Shown here in pieces: positions 1-19,670 of a stretch of 21,118 bases of DNA. Every line of letters begins with the position of its first letter. Position 1 is the stretch's first letter. The notes under the pieces are model-generated. The model did not search any database. It worked only from the letters and a program-made list of their open reading frames with translations, and was not told the DNA's origin. The stretch spans positions 1 to 21,118 of IMG/VR virus record IMGVR_UViG_3300023171_000043; one strand, written 5' to 3'. Source of the DNA: a virus. Made by a program: the position numbers and the translations under genes.

Positions 1-552
1 AACAAGTACGGCAGCGGTTTGGCTAATCTGGTCTAAATCCGGCATACCACGCATTTTAAATAGATAGTCTACTTCCGATAACCATGCGTTTTTTAATGCC
101 TTAGGTAGGGTGTCATAGCCTGTAAGGTAAGTTACTGAATACATTTCTTTGCAGTCTGCTGAGTTCCATGTCCAGGGTTCTACATATCCGTTATGATAAA
201 ACCATTCTATCCCACTGCCAGATCCGCTATTGATAACGATCCGTTTTGCCTGGTAATTAGAAACGGTGTAATCTGCTTCGGCTATATCTCCATCTTTACC
301 CGTAACCGATGTTATCTCTCCCGTTGGCGATAAAGGCAACTCTAACGGATAACCCGGCCACTGAACGATTATCGAACGCTGAACCAGTCCAATATTCAAG
401 TATGCTTCTATCCTTTGACGTGCCGCTGAGATAAGCAAAGTTAGTTCGTCATCAAATGCCGTATAATCAGCATCAATACGGGAAAAGTTCTTAACATCCG
501 CAAGCGTAACCGTTTCGGTGAAATCGGTATCGTCAATTATTTGGTAGCTCAT
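1..552 (-). CDS. Head-tail connector protein, gp6-like (3' end off window)
   Basis: The reading frame is open from an ATG at 552 through the left edge, giving 184 residues with no stop, so the C-terminus is missing. The N-terminal part reads as an acidic start followed by DDELTLLISAARQRIEAYLN, the signature of phage gp6-like head-tail connector proteins, which form the ring under the portal that joins head to tail. A later stretch with ALKNAWLSEVDYLF fits the second helical half of that family. A head position is supported by capsid, protease, portal and terminase genes upstream on the same strand, although a plus-strand cassette (633-1819) separates it from them. A TAnnTTTG box ends 4 nt before the ATG, suggesting its own promoter and almost no leader. 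The family call is from the motif and context only. Confidence 0.78.
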   Translation of the reverse strand, partial: MSYQIIDDTDFTETVTLADVKNFSRIDADYTAFDDELTLLISAARQRIEAYLNIGLVQRSIIVQWPGYPLELPLSPTGEITSVTGKDGDIAEADYTVSNYQAKRIVINSGSGSGIEWFYHNGYVEPWTWNSADCKEMYSVTYLTGYDTLPKALKNAWLSEVDYLFKMRGMPDLDQISQTAAVLV

Positions 553-556
553 AAAG

Positions 557-588
557 CAAATGTAACGAAAATGATATGAAAAGTGAAA
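557..588 (-). promoter_or_regulatory. Promoter for the head-tail connector gene
   Basis: On the minus strand TTTC (588-585) is followed by exactly 20 nt and then TACATTTG (564-557), a full match to the Bacteroidota -7 box TAnnTTTG with a 3/4 match to the -33 TTTG. The ATG begins only 4 nt after the box, so the predicted transcript starts at or within a few bases of the start codon. Confidence 0.6.
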
Positions 589-590
589 AG

Positions 591-598
591 TAGATTTG
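591..598 (+). promoter_or_regulatory. Candidate -7 box for the plus-strand cassette
   Basis: TAGATTTG at 591-598 matches the Bacteroidota -7 box and lies 34 nt before the ATG at 633. No TTTG-like -33 element is visible 19-21 nt upstream, so the promoter is weaker or activator-dependent. It is back to back with the connector promoter at 557-588. Confidence 0.4.
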
Positions 599-632
599 TT
601 ACCTTTAGTGTAAACGAAAAAACAAAACAATT

Positions 633-1127
633 ATGGGTTACAATTTATCAATCGGTCAAGCCGAAATGGAGTTTAATAAAGAATACAGTCATCTGAGTAT
701 TGATGTTCAATACATATCGCTTCCTGAAGCTCCTGCATTTGGCGAGCCTACTGACAACAGTAATCAAAGATGGCCTTCATACTCCGTTTGGAGAAGCTTT
801 ACTAAAAGTGTAGGGTTAGAGGATTTATTCTTTGATAAAGAATTTGAGGGTAATAATGGAGAGCAATGTCTTATTAGAGAACATCCAGGTTTTACCGTAA
901 TTACTGACTACCATAAAGGTGAGATAGACAAAGCGTATGCGGATTTTTACAAAAATAACCCGAGTTGCAAAGCTGGTTACTCACCTTTACTTGACGATAC
1001 CTTAGGTATTTATGAAGATAACGAATGGCCCGAATGCAACAACCAAGCTGTTAGATTAGAATGGCTTAAGTTTTGGGTGGATTGGTCTTTAGATAATTGC
1101 GAAATTCCAATTTTCAAAAACACATAA
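633..1127 (+). CDS. Hypothetical protein, first gene of the opposite-strand cassette
   Basis: An open frame of 164 codons, preceded by an A-rich leader (ACAAAACAATT) typical of Bacteroidota starts without a Shine-Dalgarno sequence. I do not recognise a family. The protein is acidic and aromatic-rich, with many W, Y and F, a central segment containing REHPGFTVITDYHKGE and a C-terminal WLKFWVDWSLDNCEIPIF. There is no signal peptide or membrane segment, so a soluble cytoplasmic protein is likely. It is followed after 1 nt by the zinc-ribbon-like gene, so the two are probably co-transcribed. Its orientation opposite to the flanking head genes suggests accessory (moron-type) cargo rather than a structural role. 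Confidence 0.7.
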   Translation: MGYNLSIGQAEMEFNKEYSHLSIDVQYISLPEAPAFGEPTDNSNQRWPSYSVWRSFTKSVGLEDLFFDKEFEGNNGEQCLIREHPGFTVITDYHKGEIDKAYADFYKNNPSCKAGYSPLLDDTLGIYEDNEWPECNNQAVRLEWLKFWVDWSLDNCEIPIFKNT

Positions 1128-1128
1128 A

Positions 1129-1389
1129 ATGTTCCGTCCTCAAAACCGATGTAACGGCAAAACTGCCTACCCATCAAAAGAGAAAGCTAACGAGACAGCA
1201 AAGCACTTGAATGGGATGGGCGGTAAGCGTGTAACATCGTATCGGTGCAAAGAATGCGCAGGATACCACGTTGGTCACGAAAGCAAAGGACGTAAAATGT
1301 CGGCTGATAAAACAGGAAAAAACAAAATTATACACCATAACCATGTGCCTGGGGTACATAGGATAAAATTAGATGATTATGAAAGCTAG
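1129..1389 (+). CDS. Small zinc-ribbon-like protein
   Basis: 86 residues, basic. Cysteines and histidines are arranged as C8, then C40-x2-C43-x3-H47-x2-H50 (YRCKECAGYHVGH), preceded by a helix starting YPSKEKANETAKHLN. Small phage proteins with this layout are common and are thought to bind one zinc ion and nucleic acid; that role is inferred here. The basic C-terminal tail (K/R/H rich) is consistent with nucleic-acid contact. It starts 1 nt after the stop of the preceding gene and its stop overlaps the start of the next, so the three plus-strand genes form one operon. Confidence 0.65.
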   Translation: MFRPQNRCNGKTAYPSKEKANETAKHLNGMGGKRVTSYRCKECAGYHVGHESKGRKMSADKTGKNKIIHHNHVPGVHRIKLDDYES

Positions 1390-1819
1390 TGAATTAAGAA
1401 TAGGCAATTATATATATGATGACTTTAACGAAGTTCATATAGTTGAGAAAATTGAATCTCAAAAGTTTAATGATTGGAACGGTTCAGAACCGTCTTTAAT
1501 TGTTTTTAGCAAGTTAAAAGAAACTCAAAACGGGATGTACACTTGTGATGTTGTTTCCGGCATACCTTTAACAGTAGAATGGTTGTTAAAGTTTGGATTT
1601 AATCGTCATGATGATGGTAGTGTTTCTGCTCAATTTAGCATAGGCACAAACCCCGTAACTAAGGATTTTATGATGTATTTAATATGGATAAAATCATCTA
1701 AAGATTATAGCTTAAAATATTTCCCTTTTTATAGAAATGGGCATCATATTATTAAATACGTTCATCAACTCCAAAACCTATACTTTGCGTTAACCGGAAA
1801 GGAACTAACTACCTCGTAA
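1379..1819 (+). CDS. Bacteroidota phage protein of the VHQLQNLYFALTG family
   Basis: 146 residues from the ATG at 1379. An in-frame ATG lies at 1373, but relatives typically begin MKxxELRIGNxV, which favours the second. Two landmarks mark this widespread Bacteroidota phage and mobile-element family: the N-terminal ELRIGNYIYD segment and the C-terminal KYVHQLQNLYFALTGKEL, with GIPLTVEWLLKFGF between them. Its function is unknown to me; members are soluble and often encoded among early or accessory genes. The start overlaps the stop of the zinc-ribbon gene by 11 nt. It is the last gene of the plus-strand cassette and runs towards the minus-strand gene ending at 1883. Confidence 0.75.
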   Translation: MKASELRIGNYIYDDFNEVHIVEKIESQKFNDWNGSEPSLIVFSKLKETQNGMYTCDVVSGIPLTVEWLLKFGFNRHDDGSVSAQFSIGTNPVTKDFMMYLIWIKSSKDYSLKYFPFYRNGHHIIKYVHQLQNLYFALTGKELTTS

Positions 1820-1821
1820 TT

Positions 1822-1857
1822 AAAAAAAAAGCCCGGCTATTTCACAAATGCCGGGCT
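1822..1857 (-). terminator. Intrinsic terminator after the leftward gene 1883-2293
   Basis: AGCCCGGC (1830-1837) and GCCGGGCT (1850-1857) form a perfect 8-bp stem with a 12-nt loop. Read leftward it is followed by a run of eight to nine T (1829-1822), so it stops leftward transcription. Read rightward there is no T tract, so it is one-directional and shields the plus-strand cassette from antisense transcription. Confidence 0.85.
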
Positions 1858-1882
1858 AAACCTAAAACAAAACAAACTATAC

Positions 1883-2293
1883 CTATTTCTTTTCGCGGGC
1901 TTTACGCGTCTTAACTTCTTTCACTGGCTCGGCTTCTTTATCAGCAACAATAGGCTCTTGCTGATCTTTGTCGGTTTCAATTTCGGTTTCAGCAACAGGA
2001 TCGGCTTCCGTTTCCTCTTCAGAAGCTATCGTTTCATCCATCTGATTGATAATTGCTAAAGCCGCTTGTTTCTCCGCTTCAGTTGAATTACCTGCCGCGA
2101 TACGTTCTGCTTTATCCTGCTCAGTTTCGACAATCTCCGAGTCATCCGGTGCTATATCAGCCAGTTTATGTTCTGTCAAATAATCCGCGTCTGCCTGGCT
2201 ACATTCAAATACATTTCCCGGATCGTAAATCCGGCCCGTTGGAGCAAATATAAACCTAACATTTGCCTTTACTTTTAAAGTTTCTTTTTCCAT
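1883..2293 (-). CDS. Small structural-cassette protein with acidic tail
   Basis: 136 residues from the ATG at 2293. A frame extension to 2335 would start inside the terminator stem at 2341-2350 / 2323-2332 and is rejected. Residues 1-45 (KVKANVRFIFAPTGRIYDPGNVFECSQADADYL) resemble a small domain common in phage head-tail cassettes, patterned as VKVxxxFxDxxTGxxYxPGDxxExxxxxAxxL. The rest is a low-complexity acidic region (about residues 48-118, rich in E, D, A, T) ending in a basic tail (EVKTRKAREKK). Position next to the major capsid gene suggests an accessory head or head-tail role. It lies between two leftward terminators, so it must have its own promoter. Confidence 0.65.
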   Translation of the reverse strand: MEKETLKVKANVRFIFAPTGRIYDPGNVFECSQADADYLTEHKLADIAPDDSEIVETEQDKAERIAAGNSTEAEKQAALAIINQMDETIASEEETEADPVAETEIETDKDQQEPIVADKEAEPVKEVKTRKAREKK

Positions 2294-2319
2294 AGTTATA
2301 AAGATATGCAATGATACGA

Positions 2320-2350
2320 AAAAACCCTGTAACATTTCTATTACAGGGTT
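2320..2350 (-). terminator. Intrinsic terminator after the major capsid gene
   Basis: AACCCTGTAA (2323-2332) and TTACAGGGTT (2341-2350) make a perfect 10-bp stem with an 8-nt loop, 17 nt past the capsid stop codon. Read leftward the stem runs into TTTTTT. It separates the abundant capsid transcript from the gene at 1883-2293. Confidence 0.85.
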
Positions 2351-2367
2351 CTATACTTATTTAGCTA

Positions 2368-3765
2368 CTATGGCTTAGTTAAAGCGGTAATAGCAGCGGC
2401 AAACGTACCTTTCACGAATGCTGGCAACCAGTTTGATTTAACAAACAGAACTGCCCTCATTTCAGCTAAGATAGTCACTAAGTTTTTGATGAAGTCATCA
2501 TTAACGTAACCGATCTGGATGTTAACGTCCTCGCGGATAGCTAACGTTGCTTTCTTGAAGTCACCTGCAAGGAACGAACCAACAGCAACACCATTGTTAG
2601 CAACGATACGCAGACCAGCGATAGTCATACCATCAACTGAACTGAATGGTGGCAACAGGTAGCGTCCTTCGGCATCTTTGATTAACTGCATTGCGTAGTA
2701 ATCAGCAGGGTTAACGACAATGGTATCACCCATGAAGTTGGCAGCGGCTAATTGAGCAACAGCGGCTACCATTACGTCGAAACGGTTAGGTGTAGGCACT
2801 AACAGGGCCATTGTCGAAACGGCTGCGAACGTAGGCGCAACAGTTAAGATACCTTTAAGGTTAGGGCTAACACCATCACCAGACAGGATTTGTTCGTCTA
2901 ACTTCAACGCAACCAATTCGCGCAGTTCGGTGTTAATCTCACCTTGCAGGAACTTAATGTCCGCTAATGCTTCTTTGGATACCTTAATCCAAACCGCAAT
3001 TTTCTCAACTTTTGCAGTTGCTTCTACGATGTCGAAATCAGTTTGCGGTTTAGTAGCACCCTCAGCAACAGTACCGGCTACACCAGGATCAGCATTTTTC
3101 TGCTCAGCCCATGCGATGTACATATTATCAGTAGTAATGATACGTACCAATTCGCGCATGAATGGTTGACGACGAACAATACGGGCAAATTCAGGATCCC
3201 ATGAAGTAAGACCAATAGTACCGCCTGAGTAGTTACCGGCAATAGTCATGGTTCCGGCTGCTTTCATAGTGAAGTTAACCTTGCCCGACTGATCTTTAGT
3301 CATTGCTTCTAAACCTGCTTTATTGGCTTCTACCAACTCTTTCAATTCAGCCTCGAAAGACTTAACTGCAGCAGGGTTACCATTTTTCAGACCAGAAACA
3401 ACTTTAGCAACATTGTCGTGTTGTTTTTGCATTTCTGCAAGGATTGTTTCAAGTGCTTTCTCCTGGTTGTCTGCAGTGTCTTTCAGCTTCATTGATTTGA
3501 ACGCTTTTTCAGCAATCTCAGCAATCAACTTGTTAGCTTCATCAGTACCTACTTCGGCCTTTAATAAGGCTGCAAGGTTATGAGCTACATACTTTTGAGC
3601 GGCGTCTTCTGCTTGCTCTTTTACAACTTTCATTGCCGCTTCTTTTTTCTGATCATCCGTCAGTTCTCCACCATTACCACCATCAGGCGATAAGTTAGCG
3701 CGGAAAAATTTTGAAACGGATGCAGAGCCAGCCCCCATTACTAATGGGTTAAATACTTTTTTCAT
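2368..3765 (-). CDS. Major capsid protein, HK97 fold
   Basis: 465 residues. Residues 1-165 contain a G/N-rich linker (about 25-35) and a long charged helical region (36-155, K/E/A rich), like the N-terminal delta or scaffolding segment of HK97-type capsid proteins that the head protease removes. From about residue 170 the mature shell domain follows, with typical marks: WDPEFARIVRR (189-199), EGATKP (235-240), the P-domain spine helix with LDEQILSGDG (289-298) and PNLKGIL (301-307). The stop is TAG at 2368-2370 and is followed by a strong terminator. The start lies 5 nt after the stop of the protease gene, so both are on one transcript. Subunits would assemble the icosahedral head around the portal. 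Confidence 0.93.
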   Translation of the reverse strand: MKKVFNPLVMGAGSASVSKFFRANLSPDGGNGGELTDDQKKEAAMKVVKEQAEDAAQKYVAHNLAALLKAEVGTDEANKLIAEIAEKAFKSMKLKDTADNQEKALETILAEMQKQHDNVAKVVSGLKNGNPAAVKSFEAELKELVEANKAGLEAMTKDQSGKVNFTMKAAGTMTIAGNYSGGTIGLTSWDPEFARIVRRQPFMRELVRIITTDNMYIAWAEQKNADPGVAGTVAEGATKPQTDFDIVEATAKVEKIAVWIKVSKEALADIKFLQGEINTELRELVALKLDEQILSGDGVSPNLKGILTVAPTFAAVSTMALLVPTPNRFDVMVAAVAQLAAANFMGDTIVVNPADYYAMQLIKDAEGRYLLPPFSSVDGMTIAGLRIVANNGVAVGSFLAGDFKKATLAIREDVNIQIGYVNDDFIKNLVTILAEMRAVLFVKSNWLPAFVKGTFAAAITALTKP

Positions 3766-3770
3766 GTTTT

Positions 3771-4628: not shown

Positions 4629-4747
4629 TTGTTAACTGGTTTATTTATGTACTTCAGCTTTTTGCTAATAGCGTCCTTAACCTTAGGATCTTCTACGCGT
4701 TCACGTATTGCCTTTAAATCTTGTTCGCTTTTAGTTGGCTTTTCCAT
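4625..4747 (-). CDS. 40-residue ORF coupled to the prohead protease
   Basis: A short open frame from an ATG at 4747, encoding a charged 40-residue peptide (starts MEKPTKSEQDLKAIRERVED, then a lysine-rich C-terminus) predicted to be one helix. The TGA stop overlaps the GTG start of the protease gene in the sequence GTGA, a standard coupling arrangement that supports real translation. An A/T-rich 110-nt leader with a terminator at its far end precedes it. It could be a small scaffold or head factor, or simply a coupling leader for the weak GTG start; I do not recognise it. Confidence 0.6.
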   Translation of the reverse strand: MEKPTKSEQDLKAIRERVEDPKVKDAISKKLKYINKPVNK

Positions 4748-4794
4748 AATTGTAACAATAATGATACGAATATATGCAAAAGATTTGAAATGCA

Positions 4795-4835
4795 AATAAA
4801 AAAGAAAATCCGGCCAAAATTAATTGAACCGGATT
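4795..4835 (-). terminator. Intrinsic terminator after the HNH gene
   Basis: AAATCCGG (4805-4812) and CCGGATTT (4828-4835) form an 8-bp stem with a 15-nt loop just past the HNH stop at 4858. Read leftward it continues TTCTTTTTT, so it ends the HNH transcript before the protease and capsid genes. Confidence 0.75.
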
Positions 4836-4857
4836 TGCGATCTGACGGGAATTATGG

Positions 4858-5442
4858 TTAAGCGAATACGAATGGAATCTTTACTTTCCTTTTACCATGT
4901 ATTAGCGCGCAAAAATTATCTCTATTTCTTTTCCTTTCGGTAGATTCCCATGCTTTAAGAGCTGAATCGTAATAGATGCCAGTTTCAACGTTCAAAACCA
5001 TTTTGGATTTTGGGTTCCTATCTGGGTTTAGAAATTGTTGTCTTCTTAATTCCACTCCTTCTTTAGATACTTTAGCTAAACCTGTTCTGAAAGCGTGCTG
5101 TGTGTTTTCTTTTGAAGTTGCCCATTCTAAATTATCTAAATTATTATTTAATTTATTACCATCGATATGGTTAACGCAGTATTTATTTTCCGGGTTAGGG
5201 ATGAAAGTTATAGCAACTACTCTGTGCATAGTTTGGGCTGGCAGCGACTTTCTGTCCCCTATAGCAATTCTTCTATAACCATGTTTGTCAATAAGCCCCT
5301 CTTTCAATATTCTTCCTTCTAGCCACCTATCAACCTTTCCCCTGCCTGTTTGAATTATTTTGCTTAAAGACCTTGCTCGACCTAAACTGCTAACCTGATA
5401 TCTACCCTCGCAACCAGGTATATCTTTCCACATTTCTTCCAT
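4858..5442 (-). CDS. Free-standing NUMOD4-HNH homing-type endonuclease
   Basis: 194 residues. The N-terminus (WKDIPGCEGRYQVSSLGRARSL, about 5-26) is the NUMOD4 motif. The HNH core follows at about 72-117, with MHRVVAITFIPNPENK, then VNHIDGNKLNNNLDNLEW and TSKENTQHAFRTG. The C-terminal part (about 140-194, with VLNVETGIYYDSALKAWES) resembles a NUMOD1-type DNA-binding module. Such enzymes nick or cut a specific site in related phages and spread their own gene. It sits between the gp7-like and protease genes, flanked by a terminator-like hairpin on each side, so it behaves as an independent insert in the head operon. No split gene or intron is apparent. An alternative in-frame ATG is three codons downstream. 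Confidence 0.88.
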   Translation of the reverse strand: MEEMWKDIPGCEGRYQVSSLGRARSLSKIIQTGRGKVDRWLEGRILKEGLIDKHGYRRIAIGDRKSLPAQTMHRVVAITFIPNPENKYCVNHIDGNKLNNNLDNLEWATSKENTQHAFRTGLAKVSKEGVELRRQQFLNPDRNPKSKMVLNVETGIYYDSALKAWESTERKRNRDNFCALIHGKRKVKIPFVFA

Positions 5443-5445
5443 AAA

Positions 5446-5493
5446 TAAAAATCCATGCCTTTCATCCGTCGAGGTGGACTACTTAGCATGGAT
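5446..5493 (-). terminator. Terminator-like hairpin before the HNH gene
   Basis: Read leftward, ATCCATGC (5493-5486) pairs with GCATGGAT (5458-5451) across a 27-nt loop and is followed by TTTTTATTT. It could end the gp7-like transcript. Because it also lies in the HNH leader (ATG at 5442), it may instead control HNH translation. The long loop makes it weaker than the other terminators here. Confidence 0.45.
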
Positions 5494-5545: not shown

Positions 5546-6382
5546 TTAGCTTGCTCCTACAAGTTTGCCATTGACTATTCTGCCTAATTTTTGATAGCGG
5601 TTATATCTGTTTATTGACATAAAACTACAAGTACACCGGCAATTTATGACTTGATTTGCTGGTAATGAAAAATCTCCCGGCCTTTCGCATAGATGGCCAT
5701 CAAGATTAAATGTACTTTCCATTTCTATAATGGTGTCATTCTCTTCAAGATGCGCCCTGCGTTCGTTTTTGTCGTTTCTACCTAACCAAACCTTATATGA
5801 CTGACCTCCTTGTGTTTCGATCCAAGAAACTGCAGCTATATTTTTACCTAAGTTAGCAATTCGACTTGTTTCGGTACGCGAAATCGTTCCCGCCCTCATT
5901 TTAGCACGTTGCCCTAAGCCTTTAAGGAATAACCTAACACGACCCTCTCTATCCATATCCAAATCGGCAACATCACCTAAAGCCCTGCGTATCATTTCGA
6001 CCGTAGTATCGTTAAGTTCGCGCTGTATCTGGTAAACGTACTGTAAAGCGTAATCTTTCAGTTTGCCCGACCAAACATCTACCAGGAAATCTATTGCGCT
6101 TGCCTTAGTTGCCGTTGGTTCGTTTTTCCGCTGCCTGTAATACTCCGACCTAGCCATTTTCATCCCCGTAATCTCATAAGCACGTTGGTATACTGACTGC
6201 CATACGTTCCGGTTGATTAACTGCTCTACTGGAATGTTATCCGTTCCTTCCAGTTCAACGTACGTCATAACGGGCTGTATTGACTGCATTATAGCTTTAC
6301 GAAATAACGGCAATAGCTGTTTTTCCGCTGTCTTATGAAAACGGTTCCAGATTAGGCGCTCTTCTCGGAATTCTTTAAGCAT
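5546..6382 (-). CDS. Head morphogenesis protein, SPP1 gp7-like
   Basis: 278 residues. The C-terminal third carries the SPP1 gp7 / Mu gpF domain: ISRTETSRIANLGK (about 166-179), W-x-RRAHLEENDTII, then PGDFSLPANQVINCRCTCSF (about 234-253) with the CRC cysteines usual in this family. The N-terminal two thirds are helical and charged. Members are minor head proteins, packaged in a few copies per virion, that associate with the portal. Gene order terminase, portal, gp7-like, protease, capsid is the usual one. The start overlaps the stop of the upstream small gene by 8 nt (ATGCTTAA). Confidence 0.88.
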   Translation of the reverse strand: MLKEFREERLIWNRFHKTAEKQLLPLFRKAIMQSIQPVMTYVELEGTDNIPVEQLINRNVWQSVYQRAYEITGMKMARSEYYRQRKNEPTATKASAIDFLVDVWSGKLKDYALQYVYQIQRELNDTTVEMIRRALGDVADLDMDREGRVRLFLKGLGQRAKMRAGTISRTETSRIANLGKNIAAVSWIETQGGQSYKVWLGRNDKNERRAHLEENDTIIEMESTFNLDGHLCERPGDFSLPANQVINCRCTCSFMSINRYNRYQKLGRIVNGKLVGAS

Positions 6383-6605
6383 TAGATTTATGCCTTTTTA
6401 CTAGCTGTATTTTATCTCCTGAATACCAATATAAAGAACCGTTTCTTTTTACCCAATACTTAGGGAAACCAGTTTCGCTGCAAGACCCTATTGGCTCTAC
6501 CTTTACAAGTTTACCTGTAACTCTCATTACTCTGTCGGTTATTCTGCCGTATTCATCCATCTTGTGGGATATAAACCTAACTGTATCGTTTATTTTTGCT
6601 TCCAT
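6375..6605 (-). CDS. Small hypothetical beta-rich protein
   Basis: 76 residues from the ATG at 6605, chosen because a TATATTTG box stands 3 nt before it; an upstream non-ATG extension would overlap that box. The sequence alternates short hydrophobic strands with charged turns (INDTVRFISHKMDEYGRITDR, then GKLVKVEPIG and YWVKRNGSLYWYSGDKIQLVKR), suggesting a small barrel of the kind found in nucleic-acid or protein-binding domains. I do not recognise a family. It overlaps the gp7-like gene by 8 nt and is probably translated with it. Confidence 0.6.
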   Translation of the reverse strand: MEAKINDTVRFISHKMDEYGRITDRVMRVTGKLVKVEPIGSCSETGFPKYWVKRNGSLYWYSGDKIQLVKRHKSNA

Positions 6606-6608: not shown

Positions 6609-6616
6609 CAAATATA
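6609..6616 (-). promoter_or_regulatory. -7 box abutting the start of the 6605 gene
   Basis: TATATTTG on the minus strand, then GGT, then the ATG at 6605. The -7 box is a full match, but the four bases 20 nt upstream (ACAC) do not resemble TTTG, so the promoter is less certain than those before the portal or connector. Confidence 0.4.
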
Positions 6617-6619: not shown

Positions 6620-6727
6620 CTATCCATCAATATCCGGTGTAACAATTTCGATACCTAACATAAACCCCTCAGCCAGCCCAACTTCGTATGCTGCTATCAA
6701 ATCGGTAGCGTCAAGTTCTAAGATCAT
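6620..6727 (-). CDS. 35-residue ORF coupled to the portal gene
   Basis: An ATG at 6727 overlaps the portal stop codon in ATGA. The frame encodes 35 residues, beginning MILELDATDLIAAYEVGL and continuing with AEGFMLGIEIV, an amphipathic helix with an acidic tail. The tight overlap and clean, low-gap placement argue for translation by coupling with the portal gene. It may be a small portal or head accessory peptide; no family is recognised. Confidence 0.5.
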   Translation of the reverse strand: MILELDATDLIAAYEVGLAEGFMLGIEIVTPDIDG

Positions 6728-8091
6728 AAACCTTCCGCGTTTGGATCTGTTTCGATTTCCCCGCTTACAACGTCCTCGATAAGTATAAGGCCAGATGCTA
6801 CTAAAATAGCCTTACCGATATCGCCACCTACCGCATCATAACTGTAAATAGCGCGTTTTTCATCTACACTTAAATCAGGCTTACCAAATACTGAAGCCAT
6901 AAGCGCCAAATCAGGTGCAAGCTCGGTAAACTCGGTTAAGTCATGGCAGGCGATAATATCCGGCCACCACTGCTTAATGATAGCGTTTAGTTTCTGGTCA
7001 AACTTGCGTAGTTCGGATATAATTAGGTTTGTGACCAATGATTTATAGCCGGTAATAATACTGTTTTCGCTGCTTTGAGACGCGACCGGGGTTAATGCCC
7101 AGGGAATACCCATGACAGCGAATATATTTTTCCAGTTGTTTTCTTCAGACTTGACAAGCTCCATCTCGGCAAGCGTATCGCCATATGGGGTTACTGTAAC
7201 CTCGGCGTTAGTGAACTTCATTCGTCTGTTGTTACGGGCACCCGACATATCGTTTTGGATAGTCCGCTTAAGGTCGTCCATTTCAGAAACCGTCATTTTG
7301 CCTACGCGTTTACCCTCAGATGTAACGTCAACCTTAGACCCAAACAAAGTACCACGCCCTCCGTTCTCAAATGCGGCTCCCTGAGCGGTTATATTTGCTT
7401 GGTTGAGTGATATATCGCCTATTGCTATTTCGTCAACGCCTAGCCCCTTTAAATCGGCTAGATTTGGATTCCAGTGTTTAAGGTGTAATATCCGGTCTTT
7501 CTCGATTCTGATCTGCTGACCGTTATCGCAGGTATACAGATAGTAAGCAACCGGGCTGAACTTCGATGCGTCATCTTTAACGATGGTGATCCGGTCACGA
7601 TCTAGTGAGTGAACGGCAACAGGCAATACGTTTCGGGATAACTCAGCGTCTAAGCCCTCGAAATATAGGAAGCCATCCCCAAACTGGTAGTTATACCAAA
7701 AGTCTGCCATACCTTCCATGCCTAAATTATCAAACAGTTCGTTTAATGGATGATCTTCTAATTCAGTAAGTGTTTGGGATTTTATAAACGCCCTATTCTC
7801 ATTGGATATGGCTTTAGAATAGAACTTGTTGAACTTGCGCGCTGCAGGTTTATTTTTCGCCTGGCTGAACATAATCGGTGCTTCTGTAATCTTGCGAACG
7901 AATATATTCGCACCGGCATAGAATATCTTATTTGAGTAGGCCGATTTATTTGATAACCCCATCAATCGGAATGTATTACCCATCAGCATTGAGACACCCG
8001 TAGCGTAGTTCGGGAAGGTATTGTTTAACGCTTTAACCACCGGAGCCATTACAACGGAAGCTACATTTTTTAAGTAGTGAGTTAATCCCAT
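6724..8091 (-). CDS. Portal protein, HK97 family
   Basis: 455 residues from the ATG at 8091. A TTG two codons upstream falls within the promoter box and is rejected. The protein lies directly downstream of the terminase large subunit and has the features of HK97-type portals: an N-terminal hydrophobic/helical start, the FYAGANIFVRKITEAP segment (about 59-74), the conserved central part with LGVDEIAIGDISLNQA (about 217-232), and GTLFGSKVDV followed by MSGARNNRRMKFTNA. A long helical region then has PWALTPVASQSSENSI (about 334-349). Twelve subunits would form the DNA entry channel at one capsid vertex and dock the terminase. The C-terminus is acidic (GEIETDPNAEGL). Confidence 0.88.
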   Translation of the reverse strand: MGLTHYLKNVASVVMAPVVKALNNTFPNYATGVSMLMGNTFRLMGLSNKSAYSNKIFYAGANIFVRKITEAPIMFSQAKNKPAARKFNKFYSKAISNENRAFIKSQTLTELEDHPLNELFDNLGMEGMADFWYNYQFGDGFLYFEGLDAELSRNVLPVAVHSLDRDRITIVKDDASKFSPVAYYLYTCDNGQQIRIEKDRILHLKHWNPNLADLKGLGVDEIAIGDISLNQANITAQGAAFENGGRGTLFGSKVDVTSEGKRVGKMTVSEMDDLKRTIQNDMSGARNNRRMKFTNAEVTVTPYGDTLAEMELVKSEENNWKNIFAVMGIPWALTPVASQSSENSIITGYKSLVTNLIISELRKFDQKLNAIIKQWWPDIIACHDLTEFTELAPDLALMASVFGKPDLSVDEKRAIYSYDAVGGDIGKAILVASGLILIEDVVSGEIETDPNAEGL

Positions 8092-8094: not shown

Positions 8095-8126
8095 CAAATG
8101 TAACTACAATGTTGCATAAAAGCAAA
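8095..8126 (-). promoter_or_regulatory. Promoter for the portal gene
   Basis: TTTG (8126-8123), exactly 20 nt, TACATTTG (8102-8095), then GGC and the ATG at 8091. Both boxes match the Bacteroidota consensus fully. The start point is expected on or next to the ATG, so the mRNA would have essentially no leader. Confidence 0.7.
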
Positions 8127-13930: not shown

Positions 13931-13934
13931 AAAA

Positions 13935-14099
13935 TTATTTCTTAGTTGATTTATCCACGAATGATTTACCCAAAAAAGTAACCATCTTTATTTTATCTTC
14001 TTTTACCCAGTTATAAACAGTCTGCCTTGTTATGCCGTTATCTTTAGCATATTTACCGACTGTTAGTAAATTAGCGGGATTTGGTGGTTTATTCTCCAT
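13935..14099 (-). CDS. Small HTH DNA-binding protein (54 aa)
   Basis: 54 residues from the ATG at 14099. Residues 12-38 (TVGKYAKDNGITRQTVYNWVKEDKI) form a clear MerR/excisionase-type helix-turn-helix, and the following FLGKSFVDK resembles the beta wing of excisionase-like proteins. It is the first gene of the unit containing the DUF3987 gene. Two matching palindromes lie at 14118-14134 (inside its own promoter) and 13902-13916 (just downstream), so autoregulation is likely. No integrase is in the window, so a transcriptional or replication-control role is favoured over excision. Confidence 0.75.
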   Translation of the reverse strand: MENKPPNPANLLTVGKYAKDNGITRQTVYNWVKEDKIKMVTFLGKSFVDKSTKK

Positions 14100-14102
14100 A
14101 TT

Positions 14103-14134
14103 CAAATATACATTTTGTTTTACACTTTGTAAAA
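14103..14134 (-). promoter_or_regulatory. Promoter of the HTH/DUF3987 unit
   Basis: TTTT (14134-14131), exactly 20 nt, TATATTTG (14110-14103), then AAT and the ATG at 14099. The -7 box is a full match, the -33 box 3/4. The transcript is predicted to begin at or beside the start codon. Confidence 0.6.
14118..14134. promoter_or_regulatory. Operator-like palindrome, copy 1
   Basis: TTTTACA-CTT-TGTAAAA, a perfect 7-3-7 palindrome that covers the -33 element and spacer of the promoter at 14103-14134. A bound repressor there would block RNA polymerase; the adjacent HTH protein is the natural candidate. Confidence 0.6.
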
Positions 14135-14192
14135 TTTATAAGCATAAATATTTTATCACAATTCTGCTTTACGGACTTTATTTCGGCTGTTG

Positions 14193-15164: not shown

Positions 15165-15314
15165 ATATATAAACTTAAAACCCCCTTCAAAATTTCTATA
15201 GCGTCTCACTTCTATATCAATTTATCAGGGGTCTGATTAAAATTTCTTTTTGCTGTTGTGAGACGACATTACAATGATAGGCATTAAAGACCGAATCGAA
15301 ATGTAACAAGGTGG
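15165..15314 (-). promoter_or_regulatory. Structured leader of the methyltransferase gene
   Basis: A 150-nt gap. On the minus strand CGTCTCAC (15265-15258) can pair with GTGAGACG (15209-15202), enclosing an inner hairpin ATCAG-ACCC-CTGAT (15237-15224) flanked by further A/T pairing. A separate 6-bp hairpin (TGTAAC / GTTACA) overlaps the stop of the upstream gene. No terminator T tract follows either. It may be an RNA switch or protein-binding leader. Confidence 0.45.
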
Positions 15315-15803
15315 TTACAATTCTCTCTTAATACTTCCCGACTTAATCATCGACCGGATCGAACTTTCGGTTAATTTCGCGTCCGGCTTCATGTCACCTA
15401 AATATTGAACTGTATATATACCTTTGTCAACCGCTTTGAAATATAACCGTCCAGCATCCCCAGACCAAACCTGAGCTTTTAAAGGCATTTCTATTTCATC
15501 TACTTCCACAATCGGAACAACACGACCCCGCAATTCAGGGGAATATTCTTTCCCAGGCAAATATTCCGCTCCAATGCTTGCCTGAATTACGAACGCAAAT
15601 TTATTAATCAAATGCCGGACGTGTAAATTTTCCGCTGCCATATCCATATGGTCGGGCGGAACAAGTACCGCTGCGATTTGCGGATCTACCCTGTACGGTA
15701 TAGATTTGGCTGTCATAGCGATATATTCGATCTCTTTTGCGTTGAACAGGCACACCGTTTCTGGTATGCCGTCTATCAATTTACCTTTTCGTTTCGCTAC
15801 CAT
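15315..15803 (-). CDS. Hypothetical protein
   Basis: 162 residues, mixed alpha/beta, soluble. Segments include KEIEYIAMTAKSIPYRVDPQIAAVLVPP (about 23-50) and a C-terminal RLYFKAVDKGIYTVQYLGDMKPD. I do not recognise a domain. The start overlaps the preceding gene's TAG by 7 nt (ATGGTAG), so it is coupled into the chain of small genes following the recombination pair. A single short hairpin follows its stop. Confidence 0.65.
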   Translation of the reverse strand: MVAKRKGKLIDGIPETVCLFNAKEIEYIAMTAKSIPYRVDPQIAAVLVPPDHMDMAAENLHVRHLINKFAFVIQASIGAEYLPGKEYSPELRGRVVPIVEVDEIEMPLKAQVWSGDAGRLYFKAVDKGIYTVQYLGDMKPDAKLTESSIRSMIKSGSIKREL

Positions 15804-16015
15804 GATAATTTGAATTTATCTGTTCCGAAATCGTTAATTAACTCTACGTTTATACCCTCGTTTCGTAAACGGTTAATCGCATAATCACCAACACGGATTC
15901 TTAACAATTCGTTTTTATGGTTCTGCGCCAATGTCATTAATTGGCTTCTGATCTGCCTGTACTCGATTGATTCGGTACGTTCGGCTAAGATTGTTGATAA
16001 TAGTTTTTTAGGCAT
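15797..16015 (-). CDS. Small hypothetical helical protein
   Basis: 72 residues, basic and mostly helical (SIEYRQIRSQLMTLAQNHKNELLRIRVGDYAINRLRNEG), ending in a short strand-like VELINDFGTDKFKLSW. Its start overlaps the stop of the HTH-like gene upstream by one base (TAATG), and its own stop overlaps the next start by 7 nt, so it sits in a tightly coupled three-gene chain. Family unknown. Confidence 0.62.
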   Translation of the reverse strand: MPKKLLSTILAERTESIEYRQIRSQLMTLAQNHKNELLRIRVGDYAINRLRNEGINVELINDFGTDKFKLSW

Positions 16016-16350
16016 TATACTTTTGATTTTAAGGTTATTGTTTTTGTATTTTCTGATTCTCTTAATTTAAAGCCTTTACGGATTATTTGGTTGACCTTTC
16101 CGTACGGTAATTTTCTTACCATGGCGATTTCTGTCATCGGCAATATACGACCGAAATAGTCTTCCATTATATCGCCATATGTTTGATTTAAGATAGGCTC
16201 TTTCCTTAACCCAATCTTGTATACCAATCTACGTAAAGTATCAACATGACAGCCTATAGCCATCGATATCGCACCGTATGTTTCGGTCTTGTAGTTATTC
16301 ATTAAATAATCTAAATCTTTGTCTGTGAATATGAATTTCGGTCTTGCCAT
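16015..16350 (-). CDS. Putative DNA-binding protein with HTH-like N-terminus
   Basis: 111 residues. Residues 12-50 (DLDYLMNNYKTETYGAISMAIGCHVDTLRRLVYKIGLRK) read as a helix-turn-helix of the kind found in phage regulators, with a second possible HTH at about 70-93 (PMTEIAMVRKLPYGKVNQIIRKGF). The C-terminus is basic. It is preceded by a 103-nt leader with strong alternative pairings and an unusual GGGGG 3 nt before the ATG. A regulatory role is inferred from the fold alone. Confidence 0.6.
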   Translation of the reverse strand: MARPKFIFTDKDLDYLMNNYKTETYGAISMAIGCHVDTLRRLVYKIGLRKEPILNQTYGDIMEDYFGRILPMTEIAMVRKLPYGKVNQIIRKGFKLRESENTKTITLKSKV

Positions 16351-16453
16351 CTACCCCCAAAGGCCGGATCAATGTCCAGCCGTTTGAGGTGTAAGAAGAT
16401 ATTTGTTTTTATTTGTTTTGCCTAACTATTCTGATCCGGTTAGGCTTGCGGAG
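16351..16453 (-). promoter_or_regulatory. Structured leader with alternative helices
   Basis: On the minus strand GCCTAAC (16445-16439) pairs with GTTAGGC (16426-16420); its loop contains CCGGATCA (16439-16432), complementary to TGATCCGG (16371-16364). The latter can instead form a local hairpin, GGCTGGA with TCCGGCC (16381-16375 with 16368-16362), ending 11 nt before the ATG at 16350. No terminator T run is present. Confidence 0.4.
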
Positions 16454-17068
16454 TTACCACTGTTTAGCAGCAAGTAATTTTTCTATAAAGGCATTACGAA
16501 TAATAACCGCTTCATCAATTCTCGACTTCATTAATTCAATTCTAGCCTGATCCCGGGGAACAACTATTTCATGCCATACAGGATCGCCATTATAAATAGC
16601 ATAATTAAAGAAGTATGCTTTATCCGAGCCAGTTACCCACATCTGATGCTGCATCTGATCTATGTAACATTGATCAATTATACCATCCATTACCAAGCGG
16701 AACAATTTAGGCGATTTAGGGCATTTTATTTCTAATACTGCATTATCAGACACCATCCCATCAGGACTTCCCCCCGTGTCAGCATTTAAAGCAAAGAATC
16801 CGCATTGGCTAACTGTTAAGAATTGTAGCTCTTTTAACTTTGAGAATTGTTCAAATGCTAAAGGTTCTGTTTCGATACCATGTTGCATATCGTAACTTAC
16901 AAATCCCTCGTCTTCATCGGCCCCATACGCAATATCTACAGCCATTTCAAAAGCGTATGTTTCACCTGTTTTCCCTAGCCCTTTAATTCCCATCAGGTCA
17001 TTAATACGCGAGCTTGTAAACTTCCCGTATCTTTCTTTTCTCCAAGCTAAACTACGCTGCTCCGACAT
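16454..17068 (-). CDS. YqaJ-type recombination exonuclease
   Basis: 204 residues, the usual length of phage YqaJ / lambda-exonuclease-like proteins. Core marks: RSLAWRKERYGKFTSSRI (5-22), GIETEPLAFEQF (about 64-75), GGSPDGMV (about 98-105, metal aspartate), VLEIKCPKS (about 110-118, the ExK pair) and YIDQMQHQMWVTG (about 135-147). The enzyme degrades one strand of double-stranded DNA from an end, creating single strands for annealing. It overlaps by 17 nt the gene upstream, which encodes its probable single-strand-binding partner. Confidence 0.92.
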   Translation of the reverse strand: MSEQRSLAWRKERYGKFTSSRINDLMGIKGLGKTGETYAFEMAVDIAYGADEDEGFVSYDMQHGIETEPLAFEQFSKLKELQFLTVSQCGFFALNADTGGSPDGMVSDNAVLEIKCPKSPKLFRLVMDGIIDQCYIDQMQHQMWVTGSDKAYFFNYAIYNGDPVWHEIVVPRDQARIELMKSRIDEAVIIRNAFIEKLLAAKQW

Positions 17069-17573
17069 ACTCTAAATATTTTGTTTTTACTTCCTCTGTT
17101 AATTGGTAAGCCTTTTCAATAGCTTCAACTGTTGCATTTGCTGCCTTTGCTTTTTCGAAATTTGCTTCTGAGAACACCGGCTTTTGTTTTTCAACTGGCT
17201 GTGTTGGTTTTATCCTAATACCGTCCTGAACTTTACCAAATGCTTTAATATCTCGTAAGACAAAGAACTCTAAACGGATTCCTTTCCAGTTACCAATATT
17301 CCAGCAGTCAATTTCATTGTGACCGTTTTTTCTTGCAAATCCAGCGATAACTTTACGGTTGGTTGAGTTGAGCACCATATCCTTTATAGGCTCCACAAAC
17401 GAACAAAAATACCCATCTGTTTTTTCGCCTGAAACGTCTACCGCTGTTTGATACCAAGCGTCTTTAATCGTAAATATTAAAGGCTTTCCCTCTATGCTAA
17501 AAGCATCCAAATCAGCAGCAGCTAAGTGCGTTGATTTTCTGTATTTCCTACAGTCTATGTTTTCTTCTCTCAT
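17052..17573 (-). CDS. Putative OB-fold-like partner of the exonuclease
   Basis: 173 residues. Residues about 10-110 resemble a phage family found next to recombination exonucleases, with the pattern STHLAAADLDAFSIEGKPLIFTIKD, then FVEPIKDMVLNSTNRKVIAGFA and WKGIRLEFFVLRDIKAFG (cf. the LNKTNAKxI and WIGKxIxLY pattern of that family). The beta-rich core suggests an OB fold and single-strand DNA binding; this is inference. Residues 120-173 are a P/Q linker and an A/E-rich helix. It overlaps the exonuclease start and begins 1 nt after the stop of the 58-aa gene. Confidence 0.68.
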   Translation of the reverse strand: MREENIDCRKYRKSTHLAAADLDAFSIEGKPLIFTIKDAWYQTAVDVSGEKTDGYFCSFVEPIKDMVLNSTNRKVIAGFARKNGHNEIDCWNIGNWKGIRLEFFVLRDIKAFGKVQDGIRIKPTQPVEKQKPVFSEANFEKAKAANATVEAIEKAYQLTEEVKTKYLEYVGAA

Positions 17574-17574
17574 T

Positions 17575-17751
17575 TTATTTCAATTCTTTACTTAATTCAA
17601 TCATATAAGGCTTAATAATATTGCTGATCCCATACGACAAAGCAGCACCCATTTCTTTACCTGTTTCAGTTTTAAATTCTGCATTTGACATTTCAATAAA
17701 CTGATCGAATATTTTACGGATTAATGCTTTGTCGTGTTCGGTGTCTGTCAT
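17575..17751 (-). CDS. Small helical protein leading the recombination genes
   Basis: 58 residues from the ATG at 17751; the TTG two codons upstream is within a TAAATTTG box and is rejected. It is all-helical and charged (TEHDKALIRKIFDQFIEMSNAEF, then IIKPYMIELSKELK). No family is recognised. It begins 3 nt after a promoter-like box and ends 1 nt before the OB-like gene, making it the first gene of the recombination unit. Confidence 0.58.
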   Translation of the reverse strand: MTDTEHDKALIRKIFDQFIEMSNAEFKTETGKEMGAALSYGISNIIKPYMIELSKELK

Positions 17752-17754
17752 CTT

Positions 17755-17762
17755 CAAATTTA
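17755..17762 (-). promoter_or_regulatory. -7 box abutting the 17751 gene
   Basis: TAAATTTG, then AAG, then the ATG at 17751. The -7 box is a full match, but the -33 position 20 nt upstream reads CAGG. The spacing to the ATG repeats that at the portal and HTH genes. Confidence 0.4.
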
Positions 17763-17806
17763 CTTATTAACCCTATGATTTACCTGTTTTTGGTGTAACG
17801 TGTTCG

Positions 17807-18610
17807 TTACTGTAGTGATTTGTAGGCTTTGTAGATTTCTTCAAGCTCGGTAGCCGAAGTTCTTACTGATTCATAAGGAATAACGAAAACTTCTTTACCT
17901 AAAATAGTTTCTTTATAACCGGTGAGGTTGAAGTAAACGAAATCTTTAGTCACAGTACAAGGTATAGGGGTATCCTCTTGAAGTATAACACACTTTGGCT
18001 TATTCTGCTCTTTTATCCACGCCTCTGCGGCTTCTTTGGTTGAGAAGGCTTTATAGTTAGCGCCATATTTATCTGGAAAGCAAACAGAGTTAAATGATAA
18101 TTTATATCCATCCTCATTAGGATTCCATAGCGTCCAAATACCTTTGTTGTTTTCGTACTCATTAGTAGCACACCACCAATCATCCCCCTCATAAAGCGGT
18201 ACCCCATCCTCACTCGTAAGTACGAATACCGGCGGCTTTATACCTACTTCAGCTGCAAAGTCTGAGAAGGGGATGACCCTGTAAAATGTAGAGTTAAATA
18301 CCTTATATTCTTTACTCTTTTTATCTGTGATATATGGAGATTTAGTATTTGGGTAAACAAAACTGTCAGAGTAAGAAATAAGACTATCGTACTTAGGGAA
18401 TTTGCACTCAGTTGGTAGATCACCCTCCCATGACCTCCACCCCTTACTTTCATAGTGCTCCATCAGCAACTTAAACTCTCGTTCGTTGTTGACTTGGATT
18501 GCGCATTTTCCGGATAGGATGCTTTTACCTTTAAGACTATTATTAATTGCTTCGCTAAGCATTTGCTTTGCCTCTTCTAATTTTGCTAAGGCTTCTTTTA
18601 ATTCGTTCAT
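17807..18610 (-). CDS. Hypothetical protein with coiled-coil start
   Basis: 267 residues. The first 30 form a charged coiled-coil-like helix (NELKEALAKLEEAKQMLSEAI). The rest is beta-rich with several aromatic patches, including EGDDWWCATNEYE (about 141-153) and FSTKEAAEAWIKEQNKPK (about 190-207), a segment common in large hypothetical proteins of Bacteroidota phages. Function unknown. It follows 1 nt after a small membrane protein and shares its helical N-terminal style with the 108-aa gene at 18772, suggesting related origin. Confidence 0.7.
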   Translation of the reverse strand: MNELKEALAKLEEAKQMLSEAINNSLKGKSILSGKCAIQVNNEREFKLLMEHYESKGWRSWEGDLPTECKFPKYDSLISYSDSFVYPNTKSPYITDKKSKEYKVFNSTFYRVIPFSDFAAEVGIKPPVFVLTSEDGVPLYEGDDWWCATNEYENNKGIWTLWNPNEDGYKLSFNSVCFPDKYGANYKAFSTKEAAEAWIKEQNKPKCVILQEDTPIPCTVTKDFVYFNLTGYKETILGKEVFVIPYESVRTSATELEEIYKAYKSLQ

Positions 18611-18611
18611 T

Positions 18612-18779
18612 TTATCTTGTTTTAGTTGTTTCCCACTGACTATTCCTAACCTTAATAACTCCGCATTTATCCAGGCAACATAAGGCTACCATAACGATTA
18701 GCATTGCAGCCACGTACTGAACGAACGGAATAGGGCGCGTGTTGGTGTCTTGTTTGATGTATTGCTGACGGTTAGACAT
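18612..18779 (-). CDS. Small single-pass membrane protein (55 aa)
   Basis: 55 residues from the ATG at 18779. A polar N-terminus (about 20 residues) is followed by one hydrophobic helix (about 19-36, VQYVAAMLIVMVALCCL) with cysteines near its end (C34, C35, C39), then a polar tail. The start overlaps the stop of the 108-aa gene as ATGTCTAA, and its TAA is one base before the next ATG, so it is firmly embedded in the operon. An early inner-membrane protein is likely; the function is unknown. Confidence 0.6.
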   Translation of the reverse strand: MSNRQQYIKQDTNTRPIPFVQYVAAMLIVMVALCCLDKCGVIKVRNSQWETTKTR

Positions 18780-19098
18780 TGGAACCCTCGCTTCCTAAGA
18801 ATTTAAGATAGCTTCCCCGATCATATATCAAGGGCTTATTTAACCTTACTTCATAGCTGTCTACATCATTAAAGTCAAATTCGTCTCCTTGCTTTTTAAC
18901 CAACTTAATAGCCATAATTAATGTGGCCCGACAAGCGTGACGTACAGCCCACAATGCCTTTACCTCCGCTGGCTTTTCGCTTGGCATGAGTTTAAAATAT
19001 TCATTATCTTCGATGCCTTTAAAATTTGCATCAGCTTCCTCAAAGTTGGCTATTGCTCTGTTGAGGTGTTCGATTGATTGTTTTAGGTTTTCTAGCAT
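18772..19098 (-). CDS. Hypothetical early protein
   Basis: 108 residues with a helical first half (LENLKQSIEHLNRAIANFEEADANF) and a more structured second half including ALWAVRHACRATLIMAIKLVKKQGDEFDF. It is soluble and slightly acidic, with no recognised domain. It is 4 nt after the first gene of the leftward operon and overlaps the start of the next. Its N-terminal helix resembles that of the 267-aa protein two genes on. Confidence 0.62.
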   Translation of the reverse strand: MLENLKQSIEHLNRAIANFEEADANFKGIEDNEYFKLMPSEKPAEVKALWAVRHACRATLIMAIKLVKKQGDEFDFNDVDSYEVRLNKPLIYDRGSYLKFLGSEGSNV

Positions 19099-19102
19099 GG
19101 TG

Positions 19103-19372
19103 TTACCCTTTAAGTATTACTTGGTTATAAAATCTGTTAGTTACTTTTTCCCAGTTTTCGTCTAGGTATTCCGAGGCTGTTTGCGTTTCGACGAATTGCG
19201 ACCTGTAGCATCCGTTTTCTTCCTGCTCTACCATCTGTTCTTCGCGGTTCAAACCCAGACATTCGATCCACTTCAGAACGTCATCTTCCAACGCTAAATC
19301 GTACCCCTTTTCGGTAATGAACTTGATTACCTTTGAATTTACTGCCTGTTCGGCTATTATAAGTTTGCTCAT
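19103..19372 (-). CDS. First gene of the leftward early operon, unknown
   Basis: 89 residues from the ATG at 19372. A longer frame to 19459 would run through the divergent promoters and is rejected. The protein is acidic and helical (AEQAVNSKVIKFITEKGYDLALEDDVLKWIECLGL, then QTASEYLDENWEKVTNRFYNQ). It is preceded by a good promoter with a 20-nt A-rich leader (ACAAAACAAT). As the first leftward early gene it may modify host functions or regulate; nothing in the sequence decides this. Confidence 0.65.
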   Translation of the reverse strand: MSKLIIAEQAVNSKVIKFITEKGYDLALEDDVLKWIECLGLNREEQMVEQEENGCYRSQFVETQTASEYLDENWEKVTNRFYNQVILKG

Positions 19373-19378
19373 ATTGTT

Positions 19379-19395
19379 TTGTCTTGTTAGGACAA
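19379..19395. promoter_or_regulatory. Operator-like inverted repeat in the divergent region
   Basis: TTGTC, 7 nt, GACAA (19379-19383 and 19391-19395). It overlaps the end of the leftward -7 box and the expected start point, the position expected for a repressor. The short arms make chance a real possibility. Confidence 0.35.
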
Positions 19396-19424
19396 TGTTA
19401 CGGATTGTAAATGACATTACCAAA
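19393..19424 (-). promoter_or_regulatory. Leftward early promoter
   Basis: TTTG (19424-19421), exactly 20 nt, TAACATTG (19400-19393), a 7/8 match to the -7 consensus. The ATG at 19372 lies 20 nt after the box. It probably drives the early operon from 19372 leftward. Confidence 0.65.
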
Positions 19425-19445
19425 TAATAATTAAAATAAAATAAA

Positions 19446-19477
19446 TTAGTTATTATCAACTATTGTATTTACATTTG
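19446..19477 (+). promoter_or_regulatory. Rightward early promoter
   Basis: TTAG (19446-19449), exactly 20 nt, TACATTTG (19470-19477), then CTTT and the ATG at 19482. The 16 nt TTACATTTGCTTTATG are identical to those at the connector start (552), on the other strand. A short inverted repeat (TAGTT, 6 nt, AACTA) lies in the spacer. Confidence 0.6.
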
Positions 19478-19481
19478 CTTT

Positions 19482-19670
19482 ATGGAAGAATTAAAAAGCA
19501 GATCGCAAATTAAACGCGAGGCGTTGTATGCGAACATAAAAGAACGTTGGGATTTATTATATAAGCCAGGAGAGACACAAAAAACACCTGTAGCTGAAAG
19601 CATCGCTCGGGAATTTGAAACGTCTCTGAGCACTGTAAACAGGATTGTGGGTAATATTAAAGGTAGGTAA
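19482..19670 (+). CDS. Small HTH regulator, first rightward gene
   Basis: 62 residues. The C-terminal half (TPVAESIAREFETSLSTVNRIVGNIKGR) is a recognisable helix-turn-helix; the N-terminal half is a basic helix (KSRSQIKREALYANIKERWDLLY). It starts 4 nt after a -7 box, with no leader to speak of, and faces the leftward early operon. It is the natural candidate for controlling the divergent promoters 19393-19477. It lacks the peptidase domain of CI/LexA-type repressors, so it is more Cro-like in scale. The identity is by motif only. Confidence 0.68.
   Translation: MEELKSRSQIKREALYANIKERWDLLYKPGETQKTPVAESIAREFETSLSTVNRIVGNIKGR

Follow-up and report, generated by a model that had tools for sequence, protein, structure and literature searches.

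The window analysed here is the whole 21,118-bp stretch of IMG/VR virus record IMGVR_UViG_3300023171_000043 (positions 1 to 21,118), which belongs to a tailed phage by gene content (capsid PF05065, portal PF04860) and further encodes terminase (PF04466/PF17288), head-tail adaptor, C5 methylase and YqaJ families. Six of its genes are preceded by a TAnnTTTG box, the -7 element of Bacteroidota promoters, at a distance of 3 or 4 nt from the ATG, a layout that predicts leaderless mRNAs. Across the phage group, many such boxes stand in one of two fixed registers to an 18-bp palindrome, TGYAAC-N6-GTTRCA, considered here as a putative operator. In class A promoters the palindrome ends 21-22 nt before the box, whilst in class B promoters it overlaps the box by 4 nt. 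Terminase relatives at 53-64% identity were found, prophage-like, in Dyadobacter, Sphingobacterium and Chryseobacterium genomes, and the host of the window phage is therefore probably a member of the Bacteroidota. No cultured member of the phage group was found, the portal giving one weak match among 50,697 named phages. The promoter elements of the window and the genes that they precede are:

1..552, minus strand: head-tail adaptor gene cut by the window end (PF05135; phrog_442, E 3.8e-20), predicted leaderless, class B
557..564, minus strand: -7 box TACATTTG (read 564-557), 4 nt before ATG 552
561..578, minus strand: degenerate operator in the class B register, sharing 4 nt with the 552 box (3/12 mismatches, left half degenerate; the homologous site in relative L007 is perfect)
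6375..6605, minus strand: 76-aa accessory gene of unknown function between the portal and head-morphogenesis genes, predicted leaderless, class A
6609..6616, minus strand: -7 box TATATTTG, 3 nt before ATG 6605
6638..6655, minus strand: operator GGTATCGAAATTGTTACA (2 mismatches), ending 21 nt before the 6605 box, class A register
6724..8091, minus strand: portal gene (PF04860), predicted leaderless, promoter footprint kept in relatives to 34% protein identity
8095..8102, minus strand: -7 box TACATTTG, 3 nt before ATG 8091, with a TTTG -33 element 20 nt upstream
8099..8116, minus strand: perfect operator TGCAACATTGTAGTTACA in the class B register, sharing 4 nt with the portal -7 box
13935-14099, minus strand: 54-aa HTH_17-like gene served by the 14099 box
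14103..14110, minus strand: -7 box TATATTTG, 3 nt before ATG 14099
15302..15319, minus strand: perfect operator TGTAACCACCTTGTTACA, the second in the window, with TACATTTC after it, which differs from a class B box by one base; no open reading frame (ORF) at leaderless distance
17755..17762, minus strand: -7 box TAAATTTG, 3 nt before ATG 17751 (58-aa gene, 17575-17751)
17794..17811, minus strand: operator AGTAACGAACACGTTACA, ending 31 nt before the 17751 box, one helical turn beyond the class A position
19470..19477, plus strand: -7 box TACATTTG, 4 nt before ATG 19482
19482..19670, plus strand: predicted leaderless gene of a 62-aa helix-turn-helix (HTH) protein, a candidate (lead only) for the regulator that reads the palindrome

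The promoters at 8091 and 552 thus belong to class B and that at 6605 to class A, with the 17751 operator at 31 nt and the boxes at 14099 and 19482 lacking a clear operator.

Promoter boxes abutting the start codon

The initial annotation had placed six TAnnTTTG boxes 3 or 4 nt before an ATG, and each lies exactly where it was put, the gaps for the genes starting at 552, 6605, 8091, 14099, 17751 and 19482 being 4, 3, 3, 3, 3 and 4 nt. All six read TANATTTG, N being C, T or A, and lack G at positions 3-4 like the -7 element of sigma-ABfr promoters; all obey the TAHHTTTG form of the Flavobacterium johnsoniae -7 box (PMC6847099). The excess of TAnnTTTG in the window is only modest (37 occurrences vs 26.1 in shuffles), so the signal is carried by positioning. 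Called genes of the window, from which the 552 gene was left out as it runs off the window, have boxes at gaps of 3 (four genes), 4 (one), 34 and 45 nt and at no other gap between 0 and 45. The background rate, taken from 21 hits at 12 gap values across 1,060 genes of related phages, is 0.00165 per gene and gap, which predicts 0.13 boxes at gaps 3-4 in ~39 genes against the 6 seen (Poisson P ~6e-9), in keeping with the earlier estimate that chance would supply far fewer than one.

Relatives were collected through terminase, portal and capsid, with a single simple ORF-calling procedure and identical copies removed, giving a close-relative set of 60 viral loci and 1,060 distinct genes. Gaps were measured from TAnnTTTG to every in-frame ATG within the first 30% of each ORF; certain records are closely related (G012 and G013), so that the counts are not all independent. 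The scan of relatives that had been proposed for enrichment at these spacings returned 36 boxes at gap 3, 30 at gap 4 and 7 at gap 5, amounting to 73 hits vs 21 for all remaining gaps from 0 to 14, whilst permuted control patterns (reversed and reverse-complement) were flat, without a peak (3-4 in the gap histogram against 73). A second hump of 75 hits at gaps 15-29 represents the ordinary leadered class. About half of the recognisable promoters in the phage group abut the ATG, with 49 leaderless-position vs 44 leadered-position boxes in the window and nine large phage records (642 genes). Seven named Bacteroidota phages (409 genes) have 3 vs 22, and two host chromosomes (400 kb each) have 12 vs 50 and 6 vs 31, that is, mostly leadered, with gap 4 dominant. 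Gaps 4 and 5 dominate (16 each) in distant viral loci (L031-L084 and L136-L165), and the palindrome is next to absent in the two of these checked (one near-match in L033, none in L036), so that this promoter placement reaches further than the operator system does. The openly searchable literature, subscription papers lying outside the search, yielded no description of TAnnTTTG promoters abutting the start codon in phages of the Bacteroidota.

Several features of these sites suggest that transcription begins at the ATG. The base at -1 is a pyrimidine in ~54 of 60 (~90%) de-duplicated leaderless sites vs about half of 786 other genes (P 2e-10), giving the purine start after a pyrimidine that a leaderless transcript would show. 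The A-rich context of leadered Bacteroidota genes (-3 and -11..-14) is lost at leaderless sites, and start codons at gaps 3-5 are almost exclusively ATG (83 of 84, with one GTG and no TTG), compared with 72 of 91 at gaps 15-29 (6 GTG, 13 TTG; P 2e-5). Upstream of the portal gene, 24 of 28 distinct sequences, spanning 98 to 34% protein identity, carry TAnnTTTR at a gap of 3-5 nt, and most of the 24 also bear a TTG -33 element and the palindrome. Several portal promoters use TACATTTA or TACTTTTA, which fall outside the exact TAnnTTTG pattern, so the gap counts given above are low. The gap peak, the pyrimidine/purine context, the exclusivity of ATG, the lost A-rich leader and the portal conservation all support the proposal that the start point falls on the ATG and that these mRNAs lack a leader. 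As judged from sequence, the leaderless layout is strong and the leaderless reading well supported.

A putative palindromic operator in two registers

Upstream regions of the leaderless genes are enriched for GTTACA and TGTAAC, which together form the palindrome TGYAAC-N6-GTTRCA, the spacer being N6 in 34 of 36 exact palindromes. Two perfect copies occur in the window vs 0.017 expected. The palindrome and its two fixed positions, which the initial annotation missed, are most of the biology of this system. It ends 21-22 nt before the box in 19 of 60 leaderless promoters and overlaps it by 4 nt in 11, with at most 2 at any other offset; 28 of the 60 have no operator, so that leaderlessness is independent of it. 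With the 86 distinct operators as the start point, the box offsets are -4 (25), 21 (28), 22 (8), 26 (7), 31 (5) and a few others; the smaller groups at 26 and 31 nt lie further out than the class A position, by about half a helical turn and one full turn. Leadered promoters have the operator at the same 21/22 and -4 registers, and the registers therefore belong to the promoter and not to the start codon. An operator with at most one mismatch was present in 18 of 20 phage records, and the two-register arrangement is strong as a sequence feature.

The two classes precede different genes. Class A comprises 59 promoters, 35 of them leaderless, in front of small genes of unknown function and of genes for an HNH endonuclease (phrog_959) and a DNA methyltransferase (phrog_757). 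Of the 34 class B promoters, 20 are leaderless; this class serves connector, tail and lysis families, comprising the portal, head-tail adaptor (phrog_442), tail completion (phrog_5), head closure (phrog_25), major tail (phrog_1407) and amidase (phrog_1794). The initial annotation had described a -33-like element exactly 20 nt further upstream of four boxes, which is literally true (TTTC, TTTG, TTTT and TTAG), but the set of accepted words was lax and only the TTTG at 8091 is good. A TTTG-like element ~19-20 nt upstream is clear at 8091 and in 27 of the 34 class B promoters (TTG at -33), and a TTG(C/T) peak at a 19-nt gap in relatives is real (16/60). TTG at -33 was found in none of the 59 class A promoters, where the palindrome stands in its place. 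With the A of the ATG taken as the start point, the centre of the class A palindrome would lie at -41.5 (gap 3) or -42.5 (gap 4), the position of a class II activator site. In ten divergent promoter pairs, a single palindrome stands in the class A register for one gene and in the class B register for its partner; in L007 both genes of such a pair are leaderless, with one perfect shared operator and ATGs ~57 nt apart.

Across 297 Bacteroidota genomes there were at most two exact palindromes per genome, no commoner than the reversed control, and a host regulon for the palindrome was rejected for the sampled hosts on these grounds. Among all viral contigs, the exact class A pattern occurred in 21, about half of them from this phage group by contig name, and the exact class B pattern in 53, with a leaderless ORF at 2 of 62 sites, near chance; so few contigs argue against a wide spread.

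Other sites in the window touch on the operator and its classes. At 633-1819 (plus strand), three opposite-strand genes split the late operon between the post-capsid gene (1883) and the head-tail adaptor gene (552), which has its own promoter at this interruption; the divergent pair in L007 is comparable. TAGATTTG, at 591-598 (plus strand), diverges from the 552 promoter, lies 34 nt before ATG 633 and is separated from the shared degenerate operator by 12 nt and not 21, so that the class A side of this pair looks decayed. A NUMOD4/HNH endonuclease gene (4858-5442, minus strand) also sits within the late operon, and the promoter of its L102 relative (13524-) is leaderless and of class A, so that such mobile genes may carry their promoter along with them. 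The operator-like site at 2328-2345, which follows the capsid gene, can also be read as a terminator-like hairpin stem (ACCCTGTAA..TTACAGGGTTTTTT) and was left out of the clear-operator count. TATCTTTA stands 21-22 nt past it, with an ATG 5 nt on (gene ending at 1883), and L130 has the same palindrome before a different gene; this may be one sequence with two jobs. The C5 methylase ATG follows the operator at 15302-15319 after ~140 nt. A perfect inverted repeat distinct from the operator (TTTTACA-CTT-TGTAAAA, 14118-14134) closely precedes the leaderless 54-aa HTH_17-like gene and is a possible self-control site of that gene.

Regulatory model and alternatives

The best explanation of these observations, and one in which we place considerable confidence, is that host-type leaderless promoters are combined with a dual-position palindromic operator read by one regulator. 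The distance of the host-type TAnnTTTG box would make RNA polymerase initiate at the A of the ATG, and ribosomes would take up the resulting leaderless mRNAs at the 5'-terminal AUG. At class A promoters, the regulator on the palindrome at about -42 would replace the -33 contact in the manner of a class II activator, whilst at class B promoters the protein bound over the -7 box, downstream of the TTG -33 element, would block polymerase. A single regulator at one site would thereby switch accessory genes on and virion genes off, one palindrome serving both in the ten divergent pairs. On the simplest reading, one dedicated regulator would act at both kinds of promoter, probably activating A and repressing B. 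A more far-reaching version, advanced tentatively as it seems to us somewhat short of an even chance, extends this activation from -42 and blocking at -7 into a phage-wide operator code with leaderless mRNAs, where the divergent pair would be a cassette letting accessory genes insert in the late operon while giving the gene on the far side of the insertion a late promoter again.

Searches of 102 small proteins for the regulator by Pfam/PHROG gave weak HTH matches only. By iterative profiles, the family of the HTH protein at 19482 was found in the window, G005, G008, G012, G016, G017 and G024, five of the seven members having a leaderless box. Its AlphaFold model is a three-helix HTH (predicted local distance difference test score 82.7) with no significant match in the PDB, the nearest plausible ones being DeoR and TrpR domains (E ~2), and the protein is put forward as a candidate for the palindrome regulator, as a lead only. 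Integrase (PF00589) was found in 0 of 14 related records and HTH_3 (PF01381) above cut-off in one of the 14, that one operator-free, although the records may be fragments. Lambda-type lysogeny was rejected, there being no integrase and no strong HTH_3 in the operator-bearing records.

Several points weigh against the model. Activation of class A is argued from operator position, and the lack of a TTG -33 element in class A arises partly because the operator itself fills those bases. The regulator common to both classes is a proposal, and the 19482 family was not found by iterative profiles, as searched, in the large operator-bearing phages G011 and G013. Start points at the AUG belong to predicted transcripts deduced from layout, with the gap as a positional proxy. 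Mapped start points lie 4 or 5 nt (PMC6847099) or 4 nt (PMC9723704) after the box; gap 4 fits this spacing exactly, but gap 3 needs the next shorter one, as the usual spacing would otherwise put the start on the second or third base of the AUG (U or G). Gap 3 is frequent in the phage group but almost missing from the two sampled host chromosomes (1/820 genes), and leaderless mRNAs are a minority in studied hosts, at 3.7-5.5% (PMC7366714, PMC9723704).

The main rival to activation of A and repression of B accepts the leaderless promoters as real and takes the palindrome as a repressor site only, with plain repression at both classes, or as the site of a phage sigma-like factor, class A merely tolerating it at -42. 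Operators at -42 can also repress, 28 of the 60 leaderless promoters manage without an operator, and the 16015-16350 gene has a weak Sigma70_r4-like match (E 0.029). We consider this rival unlikely, though deserving of serious weight, since the strict 21/22-nt phasing with the palindrome in place of the -33 element is what polymerase contact would require, and class B shows a separate blocking position. Much less credible is the view that the ATG-proximal sequence signals translation initiation on leadered mRNAs and is not a promoter. The element is start-associated in many genes, like the start-associated sequence (SAS) of cluster K mycobacteriophages, which has been suggested to act in translation initiation (PMC3203893). 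However, the motif is the exact host -7 consensus, the same phages show the second hump at 15-29 nt typical of leadered promoters, and the operator holds its registers to the box in leadered genes too, whilst the -1 base and start-codon use fit a transcription start and the A-rich leadered context is absent. Chance placement of boxes near ATGs in A/T-rich DNA, for which the small box excess (37 vs 26) speaks, was rejected as wholly improbable on the gap histogram with its sharp peak and flat controls, the record-wise gap counts, the conserved portal footprint and the Poisson test of 6 against 0.13.

Relation to known systems

Compared with Bacteroidota sigma-ABfr promoters (-33 TTTG / -7 TAnnTTTG), the phage promoters have the same -7 box, including its G-free middle positions, and class B shares the TTG -33 element. 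Most mRNAs of mapped hosts are leadered (87% with over 10 nt in F. johnsoniae, PMC6847099; 3.7% of 5' untranslated regions under 10 nt in B. thetaiotaomicron, PMC7366714; 5.5% leaderless in F. psychrophilum, PMC9723704), whereas in the phage group around half of the promoters that can be recognised lie against the ATG, often with a gap of 3. In Actinobacteria and Deinococcus-Thermus, genes with TA-like boxes ~10-12 bp before the start have been described (PMC3160421), likewise read as leaderless from a promoter box at a fixed distance before the start codon. That survey sought TANNNT and left many 'atypical' Bacteroidota genes, whereas the box here is TAnnTTTG in a phage regulon. Cluster K SAS and extended SAS (ESAS) resemble the present elements in being repeated, start-adjacent, often accompanied by upstream inverted repeats, scattered through one phage group and virtually absent from hosts (PMC3203893). 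They differ in the rRNA-pairing potential of SAS and the 17-bp arms and variable spacers of ESAS (PMC3203893), compared with a promoter and an 18-bp palindrome with fixed N6 and two registers here. The 13-bp cluster K sequence GGGATAGGAGCCC directly before the start was absent from the aligned upstream regions, which have TAnnTTTG plus 3-5 nt instead.

As with lambda CI at PRM/PR and other dual regulators, the operator positions would activate one promoter and block the divergent one, and the lambda cI mRNA from PRM is itself leaderless. Unlike in lambda, no integrase or clear HTH_3 repressor was found, the promoters thought to be blocked drive virion genes, and the switch is repeated genome-wide and not confined to one immunity region. 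At the late promoters of P2/P4, the Ogr/Delta site TGT-N12-ACA near -55 activates late genes; the palindrome can also be written as TGT-N12-ACA but differs in place, being found at -42 or, for late genes, over the -7 box. Phage mRNAs without a leader and elements tied to start codons have precedents elsewhere, and what is new is their combination with a Bacteroidota promoter, the group-wide use and the two-position operator.

In the Bacteroidota studied so far, ribosomes do not use Shine-Dalgarno pairing and leaderless mRNAs are rare, so a phage group relying on them for portal and other virion genes would offer a natural test of 5'-terminal AUG uptake. For phages of which no cultured member was found, the operator code allows promoters to be located, start codons to be corrected and likely expression classes to be assigned, and it suggests compact bidirectional promoters for use in Bacteroidota. 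Ultimately, a palindromic switch shared by many of these promoters, placed in either of two positions, apparently sets virion genes against accessory genes in this phage group.

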